From: Paracoccaceae bacterium | GTDB lineage: Bacteria; Pseudomonadota; Alphaproteobacteria; Rhodobacterales; Rhodobacteraceae | Assembly (NCBI GenBank): GCA_016937195.1 | Contig: JAFGWK010000250.1 | Location: 1 to 39,978 of the forward strand | Length of the DNA: 39,978 nt | Reading direction: 5' to 3' | Shown here: positions 10,689-23,034 of the stretch, one piece after another | How the letters are laid out: every line of letters begins with the position of its first letter | Position numbering within the stretch: position 1 is the stretch's first letter | Program-made: the position numbers and the translations under genes | Notes under the pieces: model-generated | The model's input: the letters and a program-made list of their open reading frames with translations, nothing else | Told to the model about the DNA's origin: nothing | The model's database searches: none

Positions 10689-11363
10689 TTAGTTGCGCAA
10701 CTGTTGGATCGCGACATACCCCAATCCCGGCCCAACCCATTGCCGTGAGGCCAAGATCGTGCCGCCCGCAACAAGGTAGCTCATGTCCAGGCGGACGCCT
10801 GACCCCTCGCAATGCTCGCCAACCTGCTGGGCCGTGACAGGGCCTTGCTGCACCGTGCCGCCCGGCGTGATCGTGCAGGAGACGGGCAGGGGGCGTTCCT
10901 CGCCATCGCCATCAAGATAGCGATAGACACGCGGCGCGGTGCCAGCCTTGGCGGCGCGGATGAGCGCCCCGGCGGCAGCGGTATCAGCCGACATCAGGTC
11001 GCGCCCAAATCCGCGCGTGCCCGCCAGCAACCCGCCGCGCAGCACGAAGGCGCGCTGATCGGGCGTTTGATAGGTGCGCATGGTGCCGTTTTGCCCACGC
11101 ATAGCACCAATGGTCGTGGCTTTGTTGGCCTCAAATGTCACCATGATCACAGGGCCTTGCAGCGATTGCAGCGCAGCGGCGGCCAGCGCGTTGGGGTCTT
11201 GAGGCGCAGTGGCGGCCTTCTTTTTGCCCGGCAGCACCTGACCCAGCGCAGAGGTCACCATTTTGACCCCGCCGGATTTCTTTTCCTGAATGCCTGCGCT
11301 GTCATGGCTACACGCGCCAAGAGCCACGATCAGCGCAGTTGCGCCAAGGACGTTCCGACTCAT
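10689..11363 (-). CDS. yjbF: YjbF family lipoprotein
   Basis: Lipobox LIVALGACSHD; VMVTFEANKATTIGAMRGQNGTMRTYQTPDQRAFVLRGGLLAGTRGFGRDLMSAD; immediately downstream of a yjbH homologue. Confidence 0.85.
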   Translation of the reverse strand: MSRNVLGATALIVALGACSHDSAGIQEKKSGGVKMVTSALGQVLPGKKKAATAPQDPNALAAAALQSLQGPVIMVTFEANKATTIGAMRGQNGTMRTYQTPDQRAFVLRGGLLAGTRGFGRDLMSADTAAAGALIRAAKAGTAPRVYRYLDGDGEERPLPVSCTITPGGTVQQGPVTAQQVGEHCEGSGVRLDMSYLVAGGTILASRQWVGPGLGYVAIQQLRN

Positions 11364-13468
11364 CGCCAGAACCTCCCCCAGTCGCGATACAGCCCACCTT
11401 GCTGGCTGCCATCCAGCGTTTCATACAGGCGACCTTGCACATCCACGCGCGCCCCGCCATCGCCGACATAGGGGCGCAGCGTAGTCGAGAAGCTCTTGAG
11501 CGAGGGCATGCCCGTCGCATAGCCCAGCGGGATCGTCAGGCGGACGCCTTTATCGAATTTGCCCGGCCCGAAATCGTTGCTCGACATATCGGTGAGCGTC
11601 GCCCAAGCGCCAACTTTCCAGCCATTGGCCAGTTCGCGATCCAGCGAAATCGTCGCGCCGAAATCGCGCGCCAGGTAGCGCCCGACATCCAGCTCGCCCG
11701 TGAGCCCGTTGCCAAAATCGTAATAGGCCGAGAGGAAAGCGGTCGTGGTCGAATAGTCACGGAAGGAGAAATGCTGATCGAAATCACGTTGCTTGACGAG
11801 GTTGACCTCGGCCCCCAATGCCAGACGGCTATCGACGGGTTTCCACAGCAATTCGCCCGAAATCCCGCCATACATTTGCTCTAGCAGGCCGACCGTGACG
11901 CGCGAATACAGGTTGTCGGCGGGACGACCATAGGCGGCGAAAGTCAGGTACGGAATCGTGAGATCGCCGTTTTTCTGATACTCGTAAATATCGCTGCGCA
12001 CATGTTGTACGGTCGAGGTTGAGGTTTTCGGATTGCTGTCCAGATTGCCGATCGCCTTTTGGCGCAATGCCCCAGCCAGCACCAGACCGGGCACGAATTC
12101 ATAGCGCCCGCTCAGCGTGACGCCCAGATCGGCGTGCAGATTGGTGGTCGGATCAAAGGGCGACAGTTCCAGATAAGGCGCGATCCCCCAGAGCAGGCGT
12201 GGATAGACGCCGGGCGTCTGCGTGAAGCCGCGATTGCCGCGCTCGCTTTCCCCGATCTGCGCAACGGCGGCGATCTTGGTCGAGGGGCCGTTTTCCAGCC
12301 GCTCGATATCGGCGCGTTTCAGGGTTGTGGTCGAGGCGGGCATGCCGCGTTCCATCAAGGTGACCTTGATCGTATCGACCGAAGCGGGCAGTGCGCGGCT
12401 TGCGATGCGCGCGGCGTGCCCGATGGCTTGGGGGTTGGCGCGATAGGTCTCATTCGAGATGCGCAGATCGACGCTGGTCGGCGTGAGCTTCATCGCCTCA
12501 AGCACCTGACCGTCTTTCATCAGTGCATCGCCGATGGATTTCTGGATCGCAGGGCGCGCGGTCGGGTCTTGCGCCCAGTCGGTGGCATAGGCTTGCGGAT
12601 TGCTGGCGCGCGACGGGCGCGGGGCGACCGGAACCGGCGCACGTTCCAGCCCCGAAGGGGCGGCGGGCTGGCGCGGGTCTAGCGCGATATTGAACTGAAA
12701 GCCAACCTTGGAGCCATGCAGCACATAGCCTGACACCGAGGCGATATTGTTGATCTTGTAATCGACGCCGAAATTCAGCGGCGTCTTGTTGTCAAAGCCG
12801 TTTGCGGCGGTTTCGGCAGTGTAATTATCGTCGCTATATTCGGCCTTGAGCGCGATCTTGTCAGTTGCCTGCCAGATCACCGAGGCGAAGGGCGCTGAGG
12901 GTCCCTTGAACCATGTGTCATTGTTCAGCCCGCCCGACAGCGAGGGCGCAGGGCGCGTGCCGCCCCCCGATCCACCAGAGCCAAGCCGCCCCCAACCCCA
13001 ACCCACGCTGGCGCGCAGGCGCGGCGTGAATGTCTTGGTGGCCACGACATATTCCGAGGCATAAACCCCGTTGCCAAACATATCGCGCAGCCCAACGGCA
13101 AAGGCCGGACGCCAGCCTTTTTCCTTCAGCAGTTGCAGATGCAAATCAAAGCTGCGGTCCTTGAGGGTATCCCCGCCAACGCCCAGCCCTTTTTCACGCG
13201 AAAAGCGCAGGGTGGCGGTCAGGCGCGGGAACATCTGAAATGAGAAATTGCCGCGTTGGCTATCGGAATAGCCCGAAACGGAGGCGACCAATTCCCCATC
13301 GCGAAACGTCTCGGCGGTGGGGGTGTCGATCACGCCGGGCGCGCCGAGTGTTCCGATGCTCCAGGCCAGTTGATTTTGGGTCAGTTGATCTTGGGCATGG
13401 GCCGTTTGCGCAAAGCCCATCCCTGCCAAAAGCGCTGCGCTGGCGATGCCACCCGTAATCCGTTTCAT
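11360..13468 (-). CDS. yjbH: YjbH domain outer membrane protein (exopolysaccharide-associated)
   Basis: Signal peptide; GAPGVIDTPTAETFRDGELVASVSGYSDSQRGNFSFQMFPRLTATLRFS; long beta-rich C-terminus; start overlaps/abuts yjbF in operon order. Confidence 0.88.
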   Translation of the reverse strand: MKRITGGIASAALLAGMGFAQTAHAQDQLTQNQLAWSIGTLGAPGVIDTPTAETFRDGELVASVSGYSDSQRGNFSFQMFPRLTATLRFSREKGLGVGGDTLKDRSFDLHLQLLKEKGWRPAFAVGLRDMFGNGVYASEYVVATKTFTPRLRASVGWGWGRLGSGGSGGGTRPAPSLSGGLNNDTWFKGPSAPFASVIWQATDKIALKAEYSDDNYTAETAANGFDNKTPLNFGVDYKINNIASVSGYVLHGSKVGFQFNIALDPRQPAAPSGLERAPVPVAPRPSRASNPQAYATDWAQDPTARPAIQKSIGDALMKDGQVLEAMKLTPTSVDLRISNETYRANPQAIGHAARIASRALPASVDTIKVTLMERGMPASTTTLKRADIERLENGPSTKIAAVAQIGESERGNRGFTQTPGVYPRLLWGIAPYLELSPFDPTTNLHADLGVTLSGRYEFVPGLVLAGALRQKAIGNLDSNPKTSTSTVQHVRSDIYEYQKNGDLTIPYLTFAAYGRPADNLYSRVTVGLLEQMYGGISGELLWKPVDSRLALGAEVNLVKQRDFDQHFSFRDYSTTTAFLSAYYDFGNGLTGELDVGRYLARDFGATISLDRELANGWKVGAWATLTDMSSNDFGPGKFDKGVRLTIPLGYATGMPSLKSFSTTLRPYVGDGGARVDVQGRLYETLDGSQQGGLYRDWGRFWR

Positions 13469-14270: not shown

Positions 14271-15425
14271 TTACATACAGGCTGCAAACAGCGCGCGGGT
14301 ATTTTCACGCGTCATTTCAACGGGGTTGCCGCCACAGGACGGATCTTCGAGTGCCATTTCGGTCAGCTCATCCAGACGTGCCGGATCAACGCCCATCGCT
14401 GTCAGATTTTCGGGGATCGACAGCTCGGTGCGCAGCGCAAGAATGCGCGCCTTGAAACCGTCGAACCCGCCCGCAATGCCCAAGTAAGCGGCGGCGCGGA
14501 TGATGCGGTCTTCGATTTCGGCGCGGTTGAAATCAAGCACCATCGGCATCACGACAGCGTTCGTCGTGCCGTGATGGGTGCCGTACACCGCGCCGATCGG
14601 GTGGGACAGCGAATGGATCGCGCCCAGCCCTTTTTGGAACGCCACAGCCCCCATCGCGGCGGCCGACATCATCTGCGCGCGCGCGTCCAGATCATTGGGC
14701 GTGGCATAGGCGCGGGGCAGGTTTTCAAACACCAGCCGCATTCCTTCAAGGGCGATGCCTTGGCTCATCGGGTGGTAATGCGGGCTGCAATAGGCCTCAA
14801 GGCAATGGGCCAGCGCATCCATCCCGGTGCCTGCGGTGATGAAGGCTGGCATGCCCACGGTCAGTTCCGGGTCGCAGATCGTGACGGCGGGCAGCAGTTT
14901 GGGGTGGAAGATGATTTTCTTTTTGTGAGTCTCGGAATTGGTCAGAACGCCTGCGCGACCGACCTCGGACCCGGTGCCAGCGGTGGTGGGCACGGCGATG
15001 ATCGGGGCGATGGCGTCGCCATCCGCGCGTGTCCACCAATCACCGACATCCTCAAGTTCCCAGAGGCTGAGATCGGCTTTCTGACCTGCCATCAGCGCGA
15101 TCATCTTGCCCAGATCCAGCGCTGAGCCACCGCCGAAACACACCACGCCGTCATGACCACCCGCTTTATAGGCGGCGATGCCATCGGCCATGTTTGTCTC
15201 GTTCGGGTTCGGGTCGACCTCGCTGAACACGGCGCGGCCAAGGCCCGCAGCGTCCAGAATATCAAGGGCTTGCGCGGTGATCGGCAGGGTGGAGAGCGCC
15301 TTGTCGGTCACCAATAGCGGCTTGGTCATGCCAGCGGATTTGCAATGATCGGCCAGTTCCGAGATCCGGCCGGGGCCGAATTTGATCGCGGTCGGGTAGG
15401 ACCAGTTCGCAGTGGGAGCGTTCAT
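14271..15425 (-). CDS. Iron-containing (group III) alcohol dehydrogenase
   Basis: MNAPTANWSYPTAIKFGPGRISELADH; GGGSALDLGKMIAL; VPTTAGTGSEV; GTGMDALAHCLEAY; GAIHSLSHPIGAVYGTHHGTTNAVVMP. Confidence 0.92.
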   Translation of the reverse strand: MNAPTANWSYPTAIKFGPGRISELADHCKSAGMTKPLLVTDKALSTLPITAQALDILDAAGLGRAVFSEVDPNPNETNMADGIAAYKAGGHDGVVCFGGGSALDLGKMIALMAGQKADLSLWELEDVGDWWTRADGDAIAPIIAVPTTAGTGSEVGRAGVLTNSETHKKKIIFHPKLLPAVTICDPELTVGMPAFITAGTGMDALAHCLEAYCSPHYHPMSQGIALEGMRLVFENLPRAYATPNDLDARAQMMSAAAMGAVAFQKGLGAIHSLSHPIGAVYGTHHGTTNAVVMPMVLDFNRAEIEDRIIRAAAYLGIAGGFDGFKARILALRTELSIPENLTAMGVDPARLDELTEMALEDPSCGGNPVEMTRENTRALFAACM

Positions 15426-16810
15426 TTCGTCACCTTCTTGAGATGGTAGGATTTCGGGCGCGTCAGCGCGTGATAGCCCAGCACCGATAGCGAGCCACCC
15501 CGGCCCGTTTCCTTGCAGCCCGTCCAGCACAGCGCAGGGTCAAGATAGTCGCAGCGGTTCATAAACACGGTGCCGGTTTGCAGCCGCGCGCCAATCGCTT
15601 CGGCGCGCACGGGATCGGCGGTCCAAAGCGAACAGGTCAGCCCGTATTGGCAATCGTTCATCGCTGCGATCGCCTCTTCGTCATTTTTGACCGACATGAT
15701 GCCGACCACGGGGCCGAAAGATTCTTCGCGCATCACCCGCATCTCGTGATTGACGTTGATCAGGATCTGCGGCGCCAGATACGCCCCCCCGTCATCGGCA
15801 GGGAACGTCGCGGGGTCGAGCAGCGGTTGCGCGCCCTCGTTGATCGCATCCGCGATCTGGCCGCGCACGACCTCGGCAAAGCGTTTATTCGCCATTGGGC
15901 CAAGCGTGGTCTCGGCGTCAAACGGGTTGCCGAGTTTCAGCTTGCTCGCCCAGTCAATCGCCTTGCCGACGAAGGCGTCATACAGGCTTTCATGGACGTA
16001 AATGCGTTCGATCCCGCAGCAGCATTGGCCTGCGTTGAACAGCGCGCCATCCATCAGCCCATCGACGGCGGCATCCAGATCGGCGTCTTCTGCGACATAG
16101 CCGGGGTCTTTGCCCCCGAGTTCCAGCCCCATGCCGACAAACGTACCAGCAGCGGCCTTTTCCAGCGCGCGCCCACCGCCGACAGAGCCGGTGAAGTTGA
16201 TGAAGTCAAAGGCGCGTTCGGCCAGCAGTTTTTCGGTCACGTCATGGGAGAGGAAAACGTTCTGGAACACGTCTTCAGGGATGCCCGCGGCGTGGAAGGC
16301 CTGCGCGATGCGTTCGCCCACCATCATCGTTTGCGTGGCATGTTTCAGCACCACCGTGTTGCCCGCAATCAGTGCGGGCACCAGCGAGTTGATCACTGTC
16401 ATATAAGGGTAATTCCACGGCGCGATGATGGCCACGACGCCCATCGGCTCGCGCGCAATCTGGCGCAGGGCGGTGGCGCTGTCCTCGATCACCATCGGCG
16501 CAAGCGAGGCTTGCGCAATCGAGATCATGTAATTTGCGCGCTCGTTCATGCCGCCAAATTCGCCGCCATAGCGGGTCGGGCGGCCCATCTGCCAGGCGAG
16601 CTCCTCGACGACGACGTCTTTCATCTCGTTGAGCGCGGCAATCCCGGCTTGAACCAGCGCGATGCGATCCGCCAGCGGGCGCGCGGCCCAAGAGGGTTGC
16701 GCGGCACGCGCTCGCGCGACCATCATTTGCGCATCGGGGTGCGAGAGCGTTTCACGCGTTGCATAAACCTGCCCGTCGACGGGCGAGATACATTCGATCA
16801 CTTTTGACAT
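15422..16810 (-). CDS. NAD(P)-dependent aldehyde dehydrogenase
   Basis: From ATG 16810: APWNYPYMTVINSLVPALIAGNTVVLKHA, FTGSVGGG, LELGGKDPGYV, FNAGQCCCGIERIYVH, EESFGPVVGI. Confidence 0.93.
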   Translation of the reverse strand: MSKVIECISPVDGQVYATRETLSHPDAQMMVARARAAQPSWAARPLADRIALVQAGIAALNEMKDVVVEELAWQMGRPTRYGGEFGGMNERANYMISIAQASLAPMVIEDSATALRQIAREPMGVVAIIAPWNYPYMTVINSLVPALIAGNTVVLKHATQTMMVGERIAQAFHAAGIPEDVFQNVFLSHDVTEKLLAERAFDFINFTGSVGGGRALEKAAAGTFVGMGLELGGKDPGYVAEDADLDAAVDGLMDGALFNAGQCCCGIERIYVHESLYDAFVGKAIDWASKLKLGNPFDAETTLGPMANKRFAEVVRGQIADAINEGAQPLLDPATFPADDGGAYLAPQILINVNHEMRVMREESFGPVVGIMSVKNDEEAIAAMNDCQYGLTCSLWTADPVRAEAIGARLQTGTVFMNRCDYLDPALCWTGCKETGRGGSLSVLGYHALTRPKSYHLKKVTK

Positions 16811-16853
16811 AGGGTCTCCTTGCGGGCCGATCTGCCCGCGTCTTGGCAAAGTC

Positions 16854-18215
16854 TTAGGCGCGTTCAAAGCCACGCGCACGTTCCCAATCGGTCACGACGC
16901 GGTTTTGTTCGCGGATTTCCCAGCGCGCGGCGTGGGTGTAATGGGCCATCACCTGATCGCCAAAGGCGGCGCGCAGCATTTCGCTGGCCTCAAGCGCATC
17001 GGCGGCTTCGGGCAGGGATTTGGGCACATCGACCACATCGCCCGCTTTATAGATATCGCCACCCGCCTCGGGTCCGGGGTCCATTTCCCCCTCAATCCCG
17101 GCAAGGCCCGCCGCCAGCAGCCCGGCGCAGGCGAGATAGGGGTTCAGATCGGATCCGCCAATACGACATTCCACCCGCACGGATTTGGTGCCTTCGCCGC
17201 AGATCCGAAATCCTGCGGTGCGGTTGTCGAGCGACCAGACGGCTTTGGTGGGCGCGAACAGCCCCTCGCAGAAGCGTTTGTAGCTGTTGGTGTAGGGGGC
17301 GAGGAAATAGGTGATGTCACGGGCGTATTTCAGCTGCCCGCCAAGGAAATGGCGCATCAGGTCTGACATGCCGTGGGGCGCATCGGCGTCATAAAACGCG
17401 TTCTTGCCGCCCTTCCAAAGCGATTGGTGGACATGGCTCGACGAGCCCGCTTTGTCAGTGTGGTATTTCGCCATGAAAGTCGCGGAATAGCCGTGCTGTT
17501 GGGCGATCTCCTTGGCGCATTGCTTGACGAGCACATGCATGTCGGCGGTCTCAAGCCCGGCGGCGTATTTCACGTTCAGTTCTTCTTGACCGCGCTCTGC
17601 CTCGCCCTTGGAGCATTCCACCGGAATCCCCGCATGATAGAGCGCATTGCGCATATCGCGCAGCGCGGGTTCGGTGCGCGCATTGCCGAGGATTGAGTAG
17701 TCGATATTGTGGCGCGCGACAGGCGTGGGGTCGGGGTAGCCCGCATCGAACAGCTCGGGATAGCTTTCCTCGAACAGGAAAAACTCCAGCTCGGTCGCCA
17801 TCATCGTATCAAAGCCAAGCGCCTTGGCGCGCGCGAGCTGCGACTTTAGCATCGAGCGGGGCGCATGGGGCACGGGCGTGCCGTGATGATCCAGCAGATC
17901 GCACAGCACGAGCGCCGTTCCGGGCACCCATGGGATCAGGCGCAGCGTTTCCATATCGGGCTTCATGACGTAATCGCCATAGCCGCGTTCCCAGCTAGAA
18001 GCCTCATAGCCCGGCACGGTCTCCATCTCGAGATCGGTGGCCAGCAGGTAGTTGCAGCAATGGGTTTCTTCCCAAGCGCTGGCGACGAAATGCGCGGCGT
18101 GGAACCGCTTGCCCTGAAGACGGCCCTGCATATCAATCAGGGCGACGATCACGGTGTCGATCTCTTCGGCTTTGACGGCCTTTTTGAGCGCGTCGAATGA
18201 GAACTTGGCGGGCAT
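16854..18215 (-). CDS. Glutamine synthetase family protein (gamma-glutamyl-amine synthetase type)
   Basis: GS catalytic-domain features: ELEFFLFEESYPELFDAGYPDPTP, VECSKGEAERGQEELNVKYA, MAKYHTDKAGSSSHVHQSL, YTNSYKRFCEGLFAPTKAVWSLDNRTAGFRI, VECRIGGSDLNPYLA. Embedded with ALDH/ADH rather than ntr genes. Confidence 0.9.
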   Translation of the reverse strand: MPAKFSFDALKKAVKAEEIDTVIVALIDMQGRLQGKRFHAAHFVASAWEETHCCNYLLATDLEMETVPGYEASSWERGYGDYVMKPDMETLRLIPWVPGTALVLCDLLDHHGTPVPHAPRSMLKSQLARAKALGFDTMMATELEFFLFEESYPELFDAGYPDPTPVARHNIDYSILGNARTEPALRDMRNALYHAGIPVECSKGEAERGQEELNVKYAAGLETADMHVLVKQCAKEIAQQHGYSATFMAKYHTDKAGSSSHVHQSLWKGGKNAFYDADAPHGMSDLMRHFLGGQLKYARDITYFLAPYTNSYKRFCEGLFAPTKAVWSLDNRTAGFRICGEGTKSVRVECRIGGSDLNPYLACAGLLAAGLAGIEGEMDPGPEAGGDIYKAGDVVDVPKSLPEAADALEASEMLRAAFGDQVMAHYTHAARWEIREQNRVVTDWERARGFERA

Positions 18216-18339
18216 GGAATCCTCCGGGTGGTCAGCAGGCTGCGTGACAGTGCCGCGCGGCGGCGCGCTCGGCAAGGGCCTGCGTAGGGGAAAGAGGGCG
18301 CGCAAAGGAAATTCCCCTCCACGCGCCCCCGGTTGTTAC

Positions 18340-19377
18340 TTAGCCATAACGGTAGGGCGGGCCTGCTTTGCCCATCGTATCGTTATATTTCTTAAAGATA
18401 TCAACGACCTTGGCCTTGAGCGGGCTTTCGGCGGCGATTTCGTCCCAGAACTTGTGGGCCGCATCTTCGACCTGCTTCCATTCGGCATCTGGAATCGTCG
18501 TGAGCTGCATTTCAGTGCCCTCGACGCGCAGCTTGGCCTCGCCTGCCCAATACCAGTATTGGCGATGGTAATGGGACTGATCAAAGCAGGTCTTCATCAG
18601 CGTTTTGAGCCGGTCCGGCACCGCGTTCCAACGGTCCATATTGGCAAAGAAATGCCCGACCCATGCGCCCGAGATGTTGTTGGTCAGGAAATAGGGCGCG
18701 TTCTTGCCCCAGCCCGAGGTGTAATCCTCGGTGATGCCTGACCATGCCACGCCGTCCAACTCGCCGGTTTGCAGCGCGACCTCGACATCCTCCCACGGGA
18801 TGGTCACGGGCACGACGCCGAATTGTGCCAAGAAACGCCCGGCGGTCGGGAAGGTGAACACCCGCTTTCCGTTGAGATCGGCCAGCGCGTTCACCGGTTC
18901 CTTCATCGCAAAGTTGCACGGATCCCACGAGCCTGCCGAGATGTGTTTCACACCCACAGCCGAGTATTGCTCGTCCCAGATCTCGTTGAGACCCCATTCG
19001 TTGAACAGTGTCGGTACATCAAGCGAGTAACGCAGACCGAACGGGAAATAGCCGCCAAACACGGTGACTTCGGTGGGCGAGGCCATGCTGTCATCATCGG
19101 ACTGCACAGCGTCGATCGTGCCCGCTTGCATGGCGCGGAACAGTTCAGACGTGGGCACAAGCTGGTCGGCGTAATACAGCTCGATCTCCATCTCGCCATC
19201 GGCGATCTCGTTGAAGGTCTTGATGCAATTATCCACGACCTGTTCAGCCAGCGCAGGCCCGGCATAGGTCTGCATGCGCCATTTGATCGGCGTGGTTTGC
19301 GCGAGGGCCGGGGCTGCTAGCCCGGCGGCCGCCGCACCCACCGCGCCGGTGGTGAGGAACTTTCTTCTAGTTGTCAT
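18340..19377 (-). CDS. TRAP transporter substrate-binding protein (DctP/TakP-like), twin-arginine signal
   Basis: MTTRRKFLTTGAVGAAAAGLAAPALA; ADQLVPTSELFRAMQAGTIDAVQSD; ATG 19377 has an AAGGAG SD. Confidence 0.92.
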   Translation of the reverse strand: MTTRRKFLTTGAVGAAAAGLAAPALAQTTPIKWRMQTYAGPALAEQVVDNCIKTFNEIADGEMEIELYYADQLVPTSELFRAMQAGTIDAVQSDDDSMASPTEVTVFGGYFPFGLRYSLDVPTLFNEWGLNEIWDEQYSAVGVKHISAGSWDPCNFAMKEPVNALADLNGKRVFTFPTAGRFLAQFGVVPVTIPWEDVEVALQTGELDGVAWSGITEDYTSGWGKNAPYFLTNNISGAWVGHFFANMDRWNAVPDRLKTLMKTCFDQSHYHRQYWYWAGEAKLRVEGTEMQLTTIPDAEWKQVEDAAHKFWDEIAAESPLKAKVVDIFKKYNDTMGKAGPPYRYG

Positions 19378-19425
19378 CACTTTCACTCCTTGCTGGTTTC
19401 AAGGCCCGGTTGGTCCGAGCTCTGG

Positions 19426-20751
19426 TTATCGTCCAAGAACCGCATGCGGCAGCCATAGCGCCAGTTGCGGAAAGAGCATCACGAGGATCAGCGTCAGCAG
19501 CATCACCCCCACGAACGGAAAGACCGAGCGGTAAATCACCGGCAGGGTAAATTCGGGGGGCGCCATCGCCTTCATCAGGAACAGATTATAGCCGAAGGGC
19601 GGGGTCAGATAGGCAATCTGACAGGTGATCGTATAAAGGATACCATACCAGATCAGATCAAAGCCAAGGTGACGCGCCAGACTGACATAGACCGGGGCGA
19701 CAATCACCAGCATCGCGGTGTCATCCAGAAACATCCCCATCACCAGAAAGCTAAGCTGCATCAGGATCAGGATTTGCCACGGACCAAGGCCCAAGCCCTC
19801 GGTAAAGAAATCCTCGATTGCGCGCCCCGCGCCCAGCCCGTCAAACACCGCGCCAAAGGACAGCGCCGCAGTGATGATGAGCATGAACATCACGGTGATC
19901 TGCATCGTCTGGCGCGTGGTTGTCTGGAACACTTGCCATGTAAAGCGGCGTTTGATGATAGCGGCAAACACGGCGGCCAGCGCACCGATCACCGAGGCTT
20001 CGGTCAGGCTTGCCCAGCCCTTGAGGAAGGGCACCATCATTGCCACAAAGATGAACACCGGCAGCAGGCCTGCCCGCAGCAAGCGCAGCTTTTCAGGCCA
20101 AGTGATGGCAGCGCGTTCCTCGGCATCCATCGCCGGGGCCAGATCAGGATTCAACCGGCAGCGGATCACGATATAGACCACGAACAGCGTCGCCATCAGC
20201 AGCCCCGGGACGGCACCCGCCAGCCACAATTCCGACACCGGCTGACGCGCGATCAGCGAAAACAGCACCAGCACGACCGAGGGCGGGATCAGAATGCCTA
20301 GACTTGATCCGGCTTGAATAACGCCGGAAATCATCAGCTTGTCATAGTTGCGCCGCAGCAGTTCGGGCAGCGCAATGGTCGCACCGATCGCCATACCCGC
20401 CACCGACAGCCCGTTCATCACCGAAATCATCACCATCAGCATGATCGTGCCGATGGCAAGTCCCCCCGGCAATGGCCCGAACCAGACGTGAAACATCTTG
20501 TACAGGTCTTCGGCAAGGCGGCTTTCAGACATGACATAGCCCATGTAGACGAACATCGGCAGCGTCAGTAGCGGCGTCCATTTCATCAACTTCATCACCG
20601 AGCCAAAGCCCATCTGCGTGCCCCCCGGCCCCCACAGGGCAAAGGCGGCAACCACGGCGACAAAGCCGATCGCGCCGAACACCCGCTGGCCGGTGATCAT
20701 CATCAACAGCATCGTCGAAAACATCAAAAGCGCGATGGTATTGTGATCCAT
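19426..20751 (-). CDS. TRAP transporter large permease (DctM)
   Basis: From ATG 20751: multi-TM with GLSVAGMAIGATIALPELLRRNYDKLMISGVIQAGSSLGILIPPSVVLVLFSLIARQPVSELWLAGAVPG and FLDDTAMLVIVAPVYVS. Confidence 0.94.
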   Translation of the reverse strand: MDHNTIALLMFSTMLLMMITGQRVFGAIGFVAVVAAFALWGPGGTQMGFGSVMKLMKWTPLLTLPMFVYMGYVMSESRLAEDLYKMFHVWFGPLPGGLAIGTIMLMVMISVMNGLSVAGMAIGATIALPELLRRNYDKLMISGVIQAGSSLGILIPPSVVLVLFSLIARQPVSELWLAGAVPGLLMATLFVVYIVIRCRLNPDLAPAMDAEERAAITWPEKLRLLRAGLLPVFIFVAMMVPFLKGWASLTEASVIGALAAVFAAIIKRRFTWQVFQTTTRQTMQITVMFMLIITAALSFGAVFDGLGAGRAIEDFFTEGLGLGPWQILILMQLSFLVMGMFLDDTAMLVIVAPVYVSLARHLGFDLIWYGILYTITCQIAYLTPPFGYNLFLMKAMAPPEFTLPVIYRSVFPFVGVMLLTLILVMLFPQLALWLPHAVLGR

Positions 20752-21257
20752 CAGATTTCCTCTCCGCGGATCGTCGCGATATCGCGGATCAAAAGAACGG
20801 TGGCTTGCAGGAACATCAAAAAGAACCCGGCGGTGATGATGGTCTTGATCGGCCACATATAGGGCCGCCACGCGCTTGGGTTTCGCTCGCCGTATTCAAA
20901 GGCATAGACGGTGGAATCGAACGCCGAATAGACCATGATCCCAAGGTAGAACATCAGCGCGAATACGGTGAATGCATCCCACCATGCCTGACCTTTGCGC
21001 GAGAAACGCGTGTAAAACAGGTCCATGCGCACATTGGTATCGCCCTGTAATGTCCACGGCGCGCCCAGCATGTAATAGGCCACCAGCGTGAACTGTGCCA
21101 TTTCCAGTGTCCAAAGCGCGGGGATATGGGCGATCTTGGTGATCGACGAATAGAGCATGATCGCCATGATCACATACAGCAGATACATCGTGATTTTGCC
21201 CATGCGCCGGTTCAGCGCCTCAACAAAGCGCACATAGCTGAGGATCCATGCAGGCAT
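20751..21257 (-). CDS. TRAP transporter small permease (DctQ)
   Basis: Four-TM small protein with GAPWTLQGDTNVRMDLFYTRFSRKGQAWWD; start overlaps the upstream gene stop, next to DctM. Confidence 0.92.
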   Translation of the reverse strand: MPAWILSYVRFVEALNRRMGKITMYLLYVIMAIMLYSSITKIAHIPALWTLEMAQFTLVAYYMLGAPWTLQGDTNVRMDLFYTRFSRKGQAWWDAFTVFALMFYLGIMVYSAFDSTVYAFEYGERNPSAWRPYMWPIKTIITAGFFLMFLQATVLLIRDIATIRGEEI

Positions 21258-22021
21258 CAGGCGGCCTCCCCGGCTTGCTGGTTCAGGCGCGCAATCGCGG
21301 CGCGCAGAACGGGGGCAAGGATCGCCGCCATTGCAACTTGCGACGCTTCATCCGCGATCAGATCATTGCGCAATTCCAGCATGACATGGGGCAGGCCCAG
21401 CGGCGTGGCATGCAATGCAAGCGTATGCGTGACGTCATCGGCAGCCGAATAGGGTTCGTTCAGGCGCGTATCCAGACTGGTTTGCGACTGCGCCTCGTGC
21501 AGAAACGCTTGGGCAAGCGACGGGTCGGCATCGTGAATAACACCCAGTTCAACCGTGCGAGGTTTGCCGAAATAGACCGGGGTAAAGGAATGCACGGTGA
21601 TCAGCACGGGCATCGTCCCGCGCGCCAAACGCCGCGCGATCAGGGCGCGCAGTTCGGCGTGAAAGGGCAGATACAGTGTCTCGGTGCGCGCAAGCTTGTC
21701 TTGTGCTGTTAGGCTTTGGTTGCCGGGAATATCGGTTGTTTCAGAGCGCGCGGGCATTGCGCCCGGATGATGTGGCGGGCGGTTAAGATCATAGATCAGG
21801 CGCGATTGGCAGGCTGCGGCCAGAGGCGCATCAAGGGTCTCGGCTAGTGCGCGCGCCAAGCCCAAAGCGCCGGGATCCCATGCGATATGGGCCGCGCGCT
21901 GGGCGTCGTTCAGACCCAGATCGCCCCAAAGCGCAGGCATCGCATTGGAGGCATGTTCGCAGACAAGAACGCAAGCGCCGTCGCGCCCCTCTCCCTCAAT
22001 CTGGATCGGTAAGTCTCCCAT
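21257..22021 (-). CDS. N-formylglutamate amidohydrolase family protein
   Basis: VLVCEHASNAMPALWGDLGL, HIAWDPGALGLARALAETL, SRLIYDLNRPPHHPGAMP, TVHSFTPVY. Confidence 0.9.
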   Translation of the reverse strand: MGDLPIQIEGEGRDGACVLVCEHASNAMPALWGDLGLNDAQRAAHIAWDPGALGLARALAETLDAPLAAACQSRLIYDLNRPPHHPGAMPARSETTDIPGNQSLTAQDKLARTETLYLPFHAELRALIARRLARGTMPVLITVHSFTPVYFGKPRTVELGVIHDADPSLAQAFLHEAQSQTSLDTRLNEPYSAADDVTHTLALHATPLGLPHVMLELRNDLIADEASQVAMAAILAPVLRAAIARLNQQAGEAA

Positions 22022-22161
22022 TGCCCCGCGCTCTCCCAAGACGATTCTCGTTGCAAGTTGCAATCAGGCTCGCCTCGGAGAGGTATTTATGTCAAGATAT
22101 TTTCAGCAATTCGTTTTCTGTTACAATCTGTTCGCACAGCCTTCGCAAAGGAGTGCCCATT

Positions 22162-23034
22162 TTGGCAGCAGCCGTGAAAAACATCGAAGACCAGATCTCG
22201 GGTGCGATAGACGGCATGACCCGTGCCGAGCGCCAACTTGCCAGCCATATCCTGCGCCATTATCCGATGGCGTTGCTTGGTTCGGTGACGGCGCTGGCGA
22301 AGGCGGCCGAAGTGTCCTCGCCCACGGTGGTGCGGCTGGCGCAAAAGATGGGGTTTGGCGGCTATCCGGGGCTGCAACAGGCGGTGCGAGAAGAGCTGGA
22401 GGCGCGTTTGGTCTCGCCCCTTGCCAAGCACGACCGTTGGGCCGAGGCTGCGCCCGAAACCCATATGCTCAACCGTTTTGCTGATGCGGTGTTGGGCAAT
22501 TTACAGGCCACATTGGCGCAGATTGATCATGCGCAGTTTGATGCTGCTGCCGCGCTACTGGCCGACCCCGAGCGCAAGATTTTCGCCACGGGCGGGCGTG
22601 TGACCCTGCCAATCGCGCAATATTTCACCACCCATATGAAGGTGATTCGTCCCGGTGTGGAATTGCTCGAACCGGTCTCAAACGCGTGGCCGCCCGCGAT
22701 GCTGGAAATGCGCGCGGGCGATGTTTTGTTGGTCTTCGACATCCGCCGCTATGAAAACAACGTGCTGCAATTGGTGGAGATGGCGGCAGAGCAGGGGGCC
22801 GAGGTGATCTTGATGACCGACCCTTGGGTCAGCCCGGCGGCGACCCATGCGCGCTATCGCTTTTCCGCCCAAATCGAGGTGCCAAGCGCTTGGGACAGCA
22901 CCGTGGCGTTGCAGGTGCTGGTCGAAACCCTGATGGCCGCGGTGCAATCGCTGACATGGGAGCAGACCGAAACCCGCATGAAGCGCCTCGAGTCGCTTTA
23001 TGATCGGGCGCGATTTTTCCGGCGCGGGAAGTAG
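22162..23034 (+). CDS. MurR/RpiR family transcriptional regulator (HTH plus SIS domain)
   Basis: DGMTRAERQLASHILRHYPMALLGSVTALAKAAEVSSPTVVRLAQKMGFGGYPGLQQAVREEL, then a SIS-like domain. TTG start at 22162 preceded by AAAGGAG; the ORF-track start at 21847 is over-extended. Confidence 0.9.
   Translation: MAAAVKNIEDQISGAIDGMTRAERQLASHILRHYPMALLGSVTALAKAAEVSSPTVVRLAQKMGFGGYPGLQQAVREELEARLVSPLAKHDRWAEAAPETHMLNRFADAVLGNLQATLAQIDHAQFDAAAALLADPERKIFATGGRVTLPIAQYFTTHMKVIRPGVELLEPVSNAWPPAMLEMRAGDVLLVFDIRRYENNVLQLVEMAAEQGAEVILMTDPWVSPAATHARYRFSAQIEVPSAWDSTVALQVLVETLMAAVQSLTWEQTETRMKRLESLYDRARFFRRGK

Follow-up and report, generated by a model that had tools for sequence, protein, structure and literature searches.

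The window analysed here is a stretch of 39,978 nucleotides which contains seven genes on the minus strand and a regulator gene oriented divergently from them. All eight open reading frames were confirmed, their translations scoring over the Pfam cut-offs (Fe-ADH, Aldedh, Gln-synt_C, DctP, DctM, DctQ, FGase and HTH_6 with SIS). The features are as follows:

22162..23034, plus strand: divergent regulator of the MurR/RpiR family (Pfam HTH_6 and SIS)
22090..22128, minus strand: conserved promoter/operator-like element GATTGTAACAGAA-N-CTGAAA-N-TTGACA, defined by recurring upstream words
21257..22021, minus strand: FGase-family hydrolase, likely gamma-glutamylglycine amidohydrolase (GGAH; PF05013, 140 bits)
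20751..21257, minus strand: TRAP small permease DctQ (EtoV; PF04290)
19426..20751, minus strand: TRAP large permease DctM (EtoW; PF06808 over cut-off; TIGR00786, 252 bits)
18340..19386, minus strand: TRAP solute-binding protein DctP of the EtoX type, with Phe177 (PDB 4uab/4xf5, E 9.5e-168)
16854..18215, minus strand: GS-like ligase, likely gamma-glutamylethanolamide synthetase (ETAGA; PDB 5dm3, E 2.7e-176, tree and active-site residues)
15422..16810, minus strand: aldehyde dehydrogenase, ALDH (GAADDH; PF00171, 398 bits)
14271..15425, minus strand: iron-containing alcohol dehydrogenase, ADH (GETADH; PF00465 and PF25137)

The FGase and DctQ genes overlap by 1 base, as do DctQ and DctM, and the ALDH/ADH overlap is 4 bases, with the ATG start of ADH at 15425. 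The gaps are approximately 39–48 nt between DctM and DctP, 43 nt between GS and ALDH and 124 nt between DctP and GS, the last being the longest. The listed open reading frames were too long at the 5' side for ADH, ALDH, GS, DctM, FGase and RpiR, for which the likely starts are 15425, 16810, 18215, 20751, 22021 and 22162, respectively. The RpiR start is a TTG codon preceded by AAAGGAG. The ALDH contains the catalytic motifs ELGGK and GQCC (residues 230 and 261), and the metal-site motifs of the Fe-ADH are DALAHCLEAY and HSLSHPIGAVYGTHHG. The first-pass annotation had read the seven genes and the divergent RpiR gene as one operon, which is borne out by the family assignments, the tight junctions and a gene order that is kept in relatives. 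In the window the operon is flanked by YjbH/YjbF exopolysaccharide genes (10689–13468).

A strong hairpin with a 16-bp stem is located just 3' of the DctP stop codon, in the 124-nt gap (18216..18339, minus strand). A hairpin recurs at the DctP-GS gap in most relatives, its sequence being unrelated, and it would fit an mRNA stabiliser or a partial terminator behind the binding-protein gene. Words that recur in the 67 regions compared upstream of this operon are GTAACAGA, TTCTGAAA and others that contain TTGACA. The words at 22090–22128 of the window are a candidate RpiR operator and −35 box, the −35-like TTGACA being at 22090–22095.

The gene-neighbourhood search suggested in the first-pass annotation was carried out and the genes were found to be co-conserved across relatives. 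Most of the 80 loci found via DctP keep the full set in the order RpiR(−) FGase DctQ DctM DctP GS ALDH ADH, and this order is thus not due to chance; the RpiR gene is divergent in nearly all relatives. The DctP of the window is 97% identical to that of Thioclava indica, and the organism is accordingly placed as Thioclava-like within the Rhodobacterales. Among 121 genomes of the order, EtoX was present in 78, GS in 88 and both in 76 (Fisher p 9e-17), and EutB was present in 8, none of which had GS (Fisher p 1.5e-5) or, in this sample, EtoX, these being tests that ignore shared ancestry. Within the genus, GS and an EtoX of at least 94% identity occurred in the identical 12 of 16 genomes. EutB was not found in the organism's own genome, which is approximately 92% complete.

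Two Aliagarivorans species (L053:10001-13471 and L060:10001-13471) and a relative from the genus of the window's organism (G012; L092:7224-12702) have EtoX-type TRAP genes directly followed by EutB and EutC, which take the place of GS-ALDH-ADH. The two genes were Pfam-confirmed in L053 and L092, and in L060 they were assigned by identical gene clusters. One importer is thus found with two unrelated ethanolamine-degrading enzymes, which is evidence for the ligand from a source other than the published binding assay.

Among solved structures, the DctP is best matched by PDB 4uab/4xf5, with 74% identity over 316 residues. We take 4uab/4xf5 and 5dm3, which the ligase matches, to be Chromohalobacter salexigens proteins (Csal_0678 and the GS of that species). 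Phe177 of the window protein aligns with the Arg of 2hzk and 4yzz, i.e. the carboxylate-binding TRAP position, and a Phe is found there in 81 of 82 homologues. A TRAP binding protein for carboxylates was considered and rejected, since the conserved ligand-binding Arg is Phe177. A TRAP importer had been regarded as an odd partner for these enzymes, and the oddity is real, with Phe in place of the carboxylate-binding Arg, and already known. Ethanolamine was unexpected as a TRAP ligand due to its positive charge (PMC5812351). In a second source, Csal_0678 is described as binding ethanolamine and as having no TRAP carboxylate Arg (PMC4646407). Purified EtoX from Phaeobacter (Roseobacter) sp. MED193 has a Kd of 7.9 µM for ethanolamine and did not bind phosphorylethanolamine, phosphocholine or glycerol phosphates (PMC10132767).

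The identity of the GS-like ligase is 59% with 5dm3 and 61% with the MED193 ligase, compared with 26–27% for PuuA and GlnA. In a maximum-likelihood tree it belongs to a clade with 100/96 support that also contains the MED193 ligase, 5dm3, 11zs and further copies from operons. Not part of this clade are the GlnA of E. coli and that of the genome itself (L001), PuuA, one GlnT and a GS of the aniline type. The phylogeny proposed in the first-pass annotation thus places the ligase apart from GlnA. The metal, glutamate and nucleotide (ATP) ligands are kept. The ammonia-site residues are lost (flap Glu327 to Phe, Asp50 to Pro) and Tyr179 is also changed, and these changes resemble those described for GlnA4 and PauA7. 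With the NCBIfam GlnT model the score was far under the cut-off.

A match of 252 bits to the NCBIfam GlnA model could suggest a biosynthetic glutamine synthetase that happens to lie beside an unrelated carboxylate TRAP operon. However, the cut-off of the model is 429 bits, the organism already has a GlnA of its own within the E. coli GlnA clade, and both the loss of the ammonia-site residues and the change of the TRAP Arg to Phe speak against this explanation, to which we attach next to no credence. It is hardly conceivable that the unit encodes a putrescine-type (Puu) gamma-glutamyl amine pathway, despite the presence of a GS-like ligase and an ALDH and a score of 234 bits with the NCBIfam gamma-glutamylputrescine synthetase model. 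The cut-off of that model is 650 bits, PuuA groups elsewhere in the tree, in a separate clade together with a paralogue from the organism's own genome (L003), and an ADH would be without a role on an amine terminus. PuuB and PuuD are absent from the eight genes, in agreement with the earlier view that this is not a standard Puu pathway.

The alternative which stays closest to the proposed route is that the chemistry is identical and acts physiologically on a different small amino-alcohol, for example 2-amino-1-propanol, 1-amino-2-propanol, 3-aminopropanol or an N-methylated ethanolamine. Related GS cassettes are found beside DMGDH-like and choline/ethanolamine kinase-like genes, or beside a HODM-like gene, and 4xf5 is presumably Csal_0678 with an amino-propanol, all of which could point in this direction. 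Against it stand the binding of ethanolamine at 7.9 µM by the close orthologue EtoX, the pairing of the same TRAP with EutBC and the absence of EutB wherever GS was present in the sample, and we consider another substrate improbable.

The relatives also include loci in which the cassette differs. The FGase gene is missing from the operon in five loci (L039, L058, L073, L074 and L085), and in three of them (L039, L073 and L074) the gene after ADH is FAD amino-acid-oxidase-like; operons without FGase occur in Fuscovulum and Tabrizicola. The fetched flanks of these five loci contained no homologue of FGase or PuuD, and FGase-family genes were present elsewhere in all five genomes. In several GS-only genomes (L122, L123, L125 and L126) Fe-ADH is the neighbour of GS; the calls there include no FGase, and no ALDH between the two genes. 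In L120:5450-8348 and L121:5385-8271 a small gene, of the glyoxalase fold in L120, lies between the GS-clade gene and Fe-ADH, and again no FGase was called, nor any ALDH between them. In two further genomes (G046 and G135; loci L115 and L116) the TRAP genes still adjoin YjbH/YjbF genes, as in the window, but no GS, ALDH or ADH accompanies them; the enzyme half of the operon has apparently been lost. HutG N-formylglutamate deformylase was considered as the identity of the window's FGase-family hydrolase and rejected, with 19 bits against an equivalog cut-off of 279.

On the Salipiger abyssi plasmid pPABY1 (L095:28-15245), FGase-GS-ALDH-FeADH occur without TRAP. After this cassette come glyA and an L-serine ammonia-lyase gene, as would be expected if glycine is the product, and before it lie a dimethylglycine-dehydrogenase-like (DMGDH-like) gene, ETF genes, FolD and PurU. 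It is possible that the region is an island for conversion of methylated ethanolamine to serine/pyruvate. A choline/ethanolamine kinase-like gene is also present there. The substrate may vary across the GS clade, because some cassettes in which the clade is represented lack TRAP, FGase or ALDH. There is some chance, albeit a rather small one, that the family is modular, with the EtoX importer, the GS-ADH core, ALDH and hydrolase recombining, and that some versions serve other amino-alcohols or end otherwise than in the release of glycine.

For the window itself, an eto ethanolamine operon, for uptake, glutamylation, oxidation and hydrolysis to glycine and glutamate, is very probably the correct reading. 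What this study observed directly is which genes are present, in which order and how they are co-conserved, as well as their family placement and the changes in the active site; we infer every enzyme step in the source organism and the regulation by RpiR. The TRAP importer EtoVWX would import ethanolamine, and the GS-like ligase would use ATP to couple ethanolamine, through the amino group, to glutamate at the gamma-carboxylate, giving gamma-glutamylethanolamide. The iron-type ADH would then oxidize the hydroxyl of this compound to the aldehyde and the ALDH the aldehyde to gamma-glutamylglycine, from which the FGase-family hydrolase would release glycine and glutamate. The glutamate would be recycled and the glycine would enter glycine cleavage or the serine route, and control of the operon, exerted at the divergent promoter, probably lies with the RpiR protein. 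The two oxidations and the hydrolysis are predicted on the basis of induction data and context; for the three enzymes concerned (ADH, ALDH and hydrolase), no assays were found in the literature examined.

The route of glutamylation, ADH, ALDH and hydrolysis deduced in the first-pass annotation is identical to the pathway published for the MED193 operon, and the ethanolamine form of that deduction is strongly favoured by the DctP homology (74% to 4uab) and the genome context. The annotation left the substrate open and did not recognise a known system, which has been described down to its gene order and is widespread in its bacterial order. A major membrane lipid carries ethanolamine as its head group, and published work links the operon to marine nitrogen and phosphorus cycling, the window being one further carrier. 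The value added here is comparative, namely one importer combined with two unrelated ethanolamine-degrading enzymes, and two routes which are mutually exclusive among the sampled relatives, and it backs the assignment of the substrate without recourse to the published binding data.

The closest known system is the ethanolamine operon MED193_10021-10056 of MED193 (Sci Adv 2023; PMC10132767), which consists of RpiR, GGAH, EtoV, EtoW, EtoX, ETAGA (ethanolamine gamma-glutamylase), GAADDH and GETADH, and of which five proteins are raised by phosphorylethanolamine (PMC10132767). The DNA of the MED193 locus itself was recovered (L052), and all eight genes are identical to the window in order and orientation, with protein identities of 44–77%. 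The two differ only by sequence divergence, which is greatest in RpiR (46% identity), FGase and DctQ; the DctM of MED193 is a 58% match and the DctM-DctP spacing is larger in MED193.

The same kind of route has been proposed for Chromohalobacter and Streptomyces. The gammaproteobacterium Chromohalobacter salexigens shares 74% (DctP) and 59% (GS) identity with the window, and the carboxylate Arg is absent from both DctP proteins. For the GlnA4 cluster of Streptomyces coelicolor (SCO1611-1615, with the ligase SCO1613), glutamylation of ethanolamine, two oxidations and hydrolysis are likewise proposed, and the E327/D50-type residues are lost, whereas it has a short-chain dehydrogenase instead of Fe-ADH and another transporter and regulator. 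The ligase reaction with ethanolamine was measured for this related enzyme, and identical later steps were proposed, including a hydrolase of the formylglutamate-amidohydrolase family (PMC6529630). The GS of a Streptomyces plasmid (L093) was considered as a further GlnA4 cluster and rejected, as it sits in an aromatic/P450 region. The Puu pathway of E. coli also proceeds through gamma-glutamylated intermediates with a GS-like ligase and an ALDH, but its substrate is putrescine, it uses the PuuB oxidase and the PuuD hydrolase, and the ligases are only 26% identical. With the EutBC ethanolamine ammonia-lyase systems the window shares the substrate and, in some species, the importer, while the enzyme is non-homologous to those of the window.
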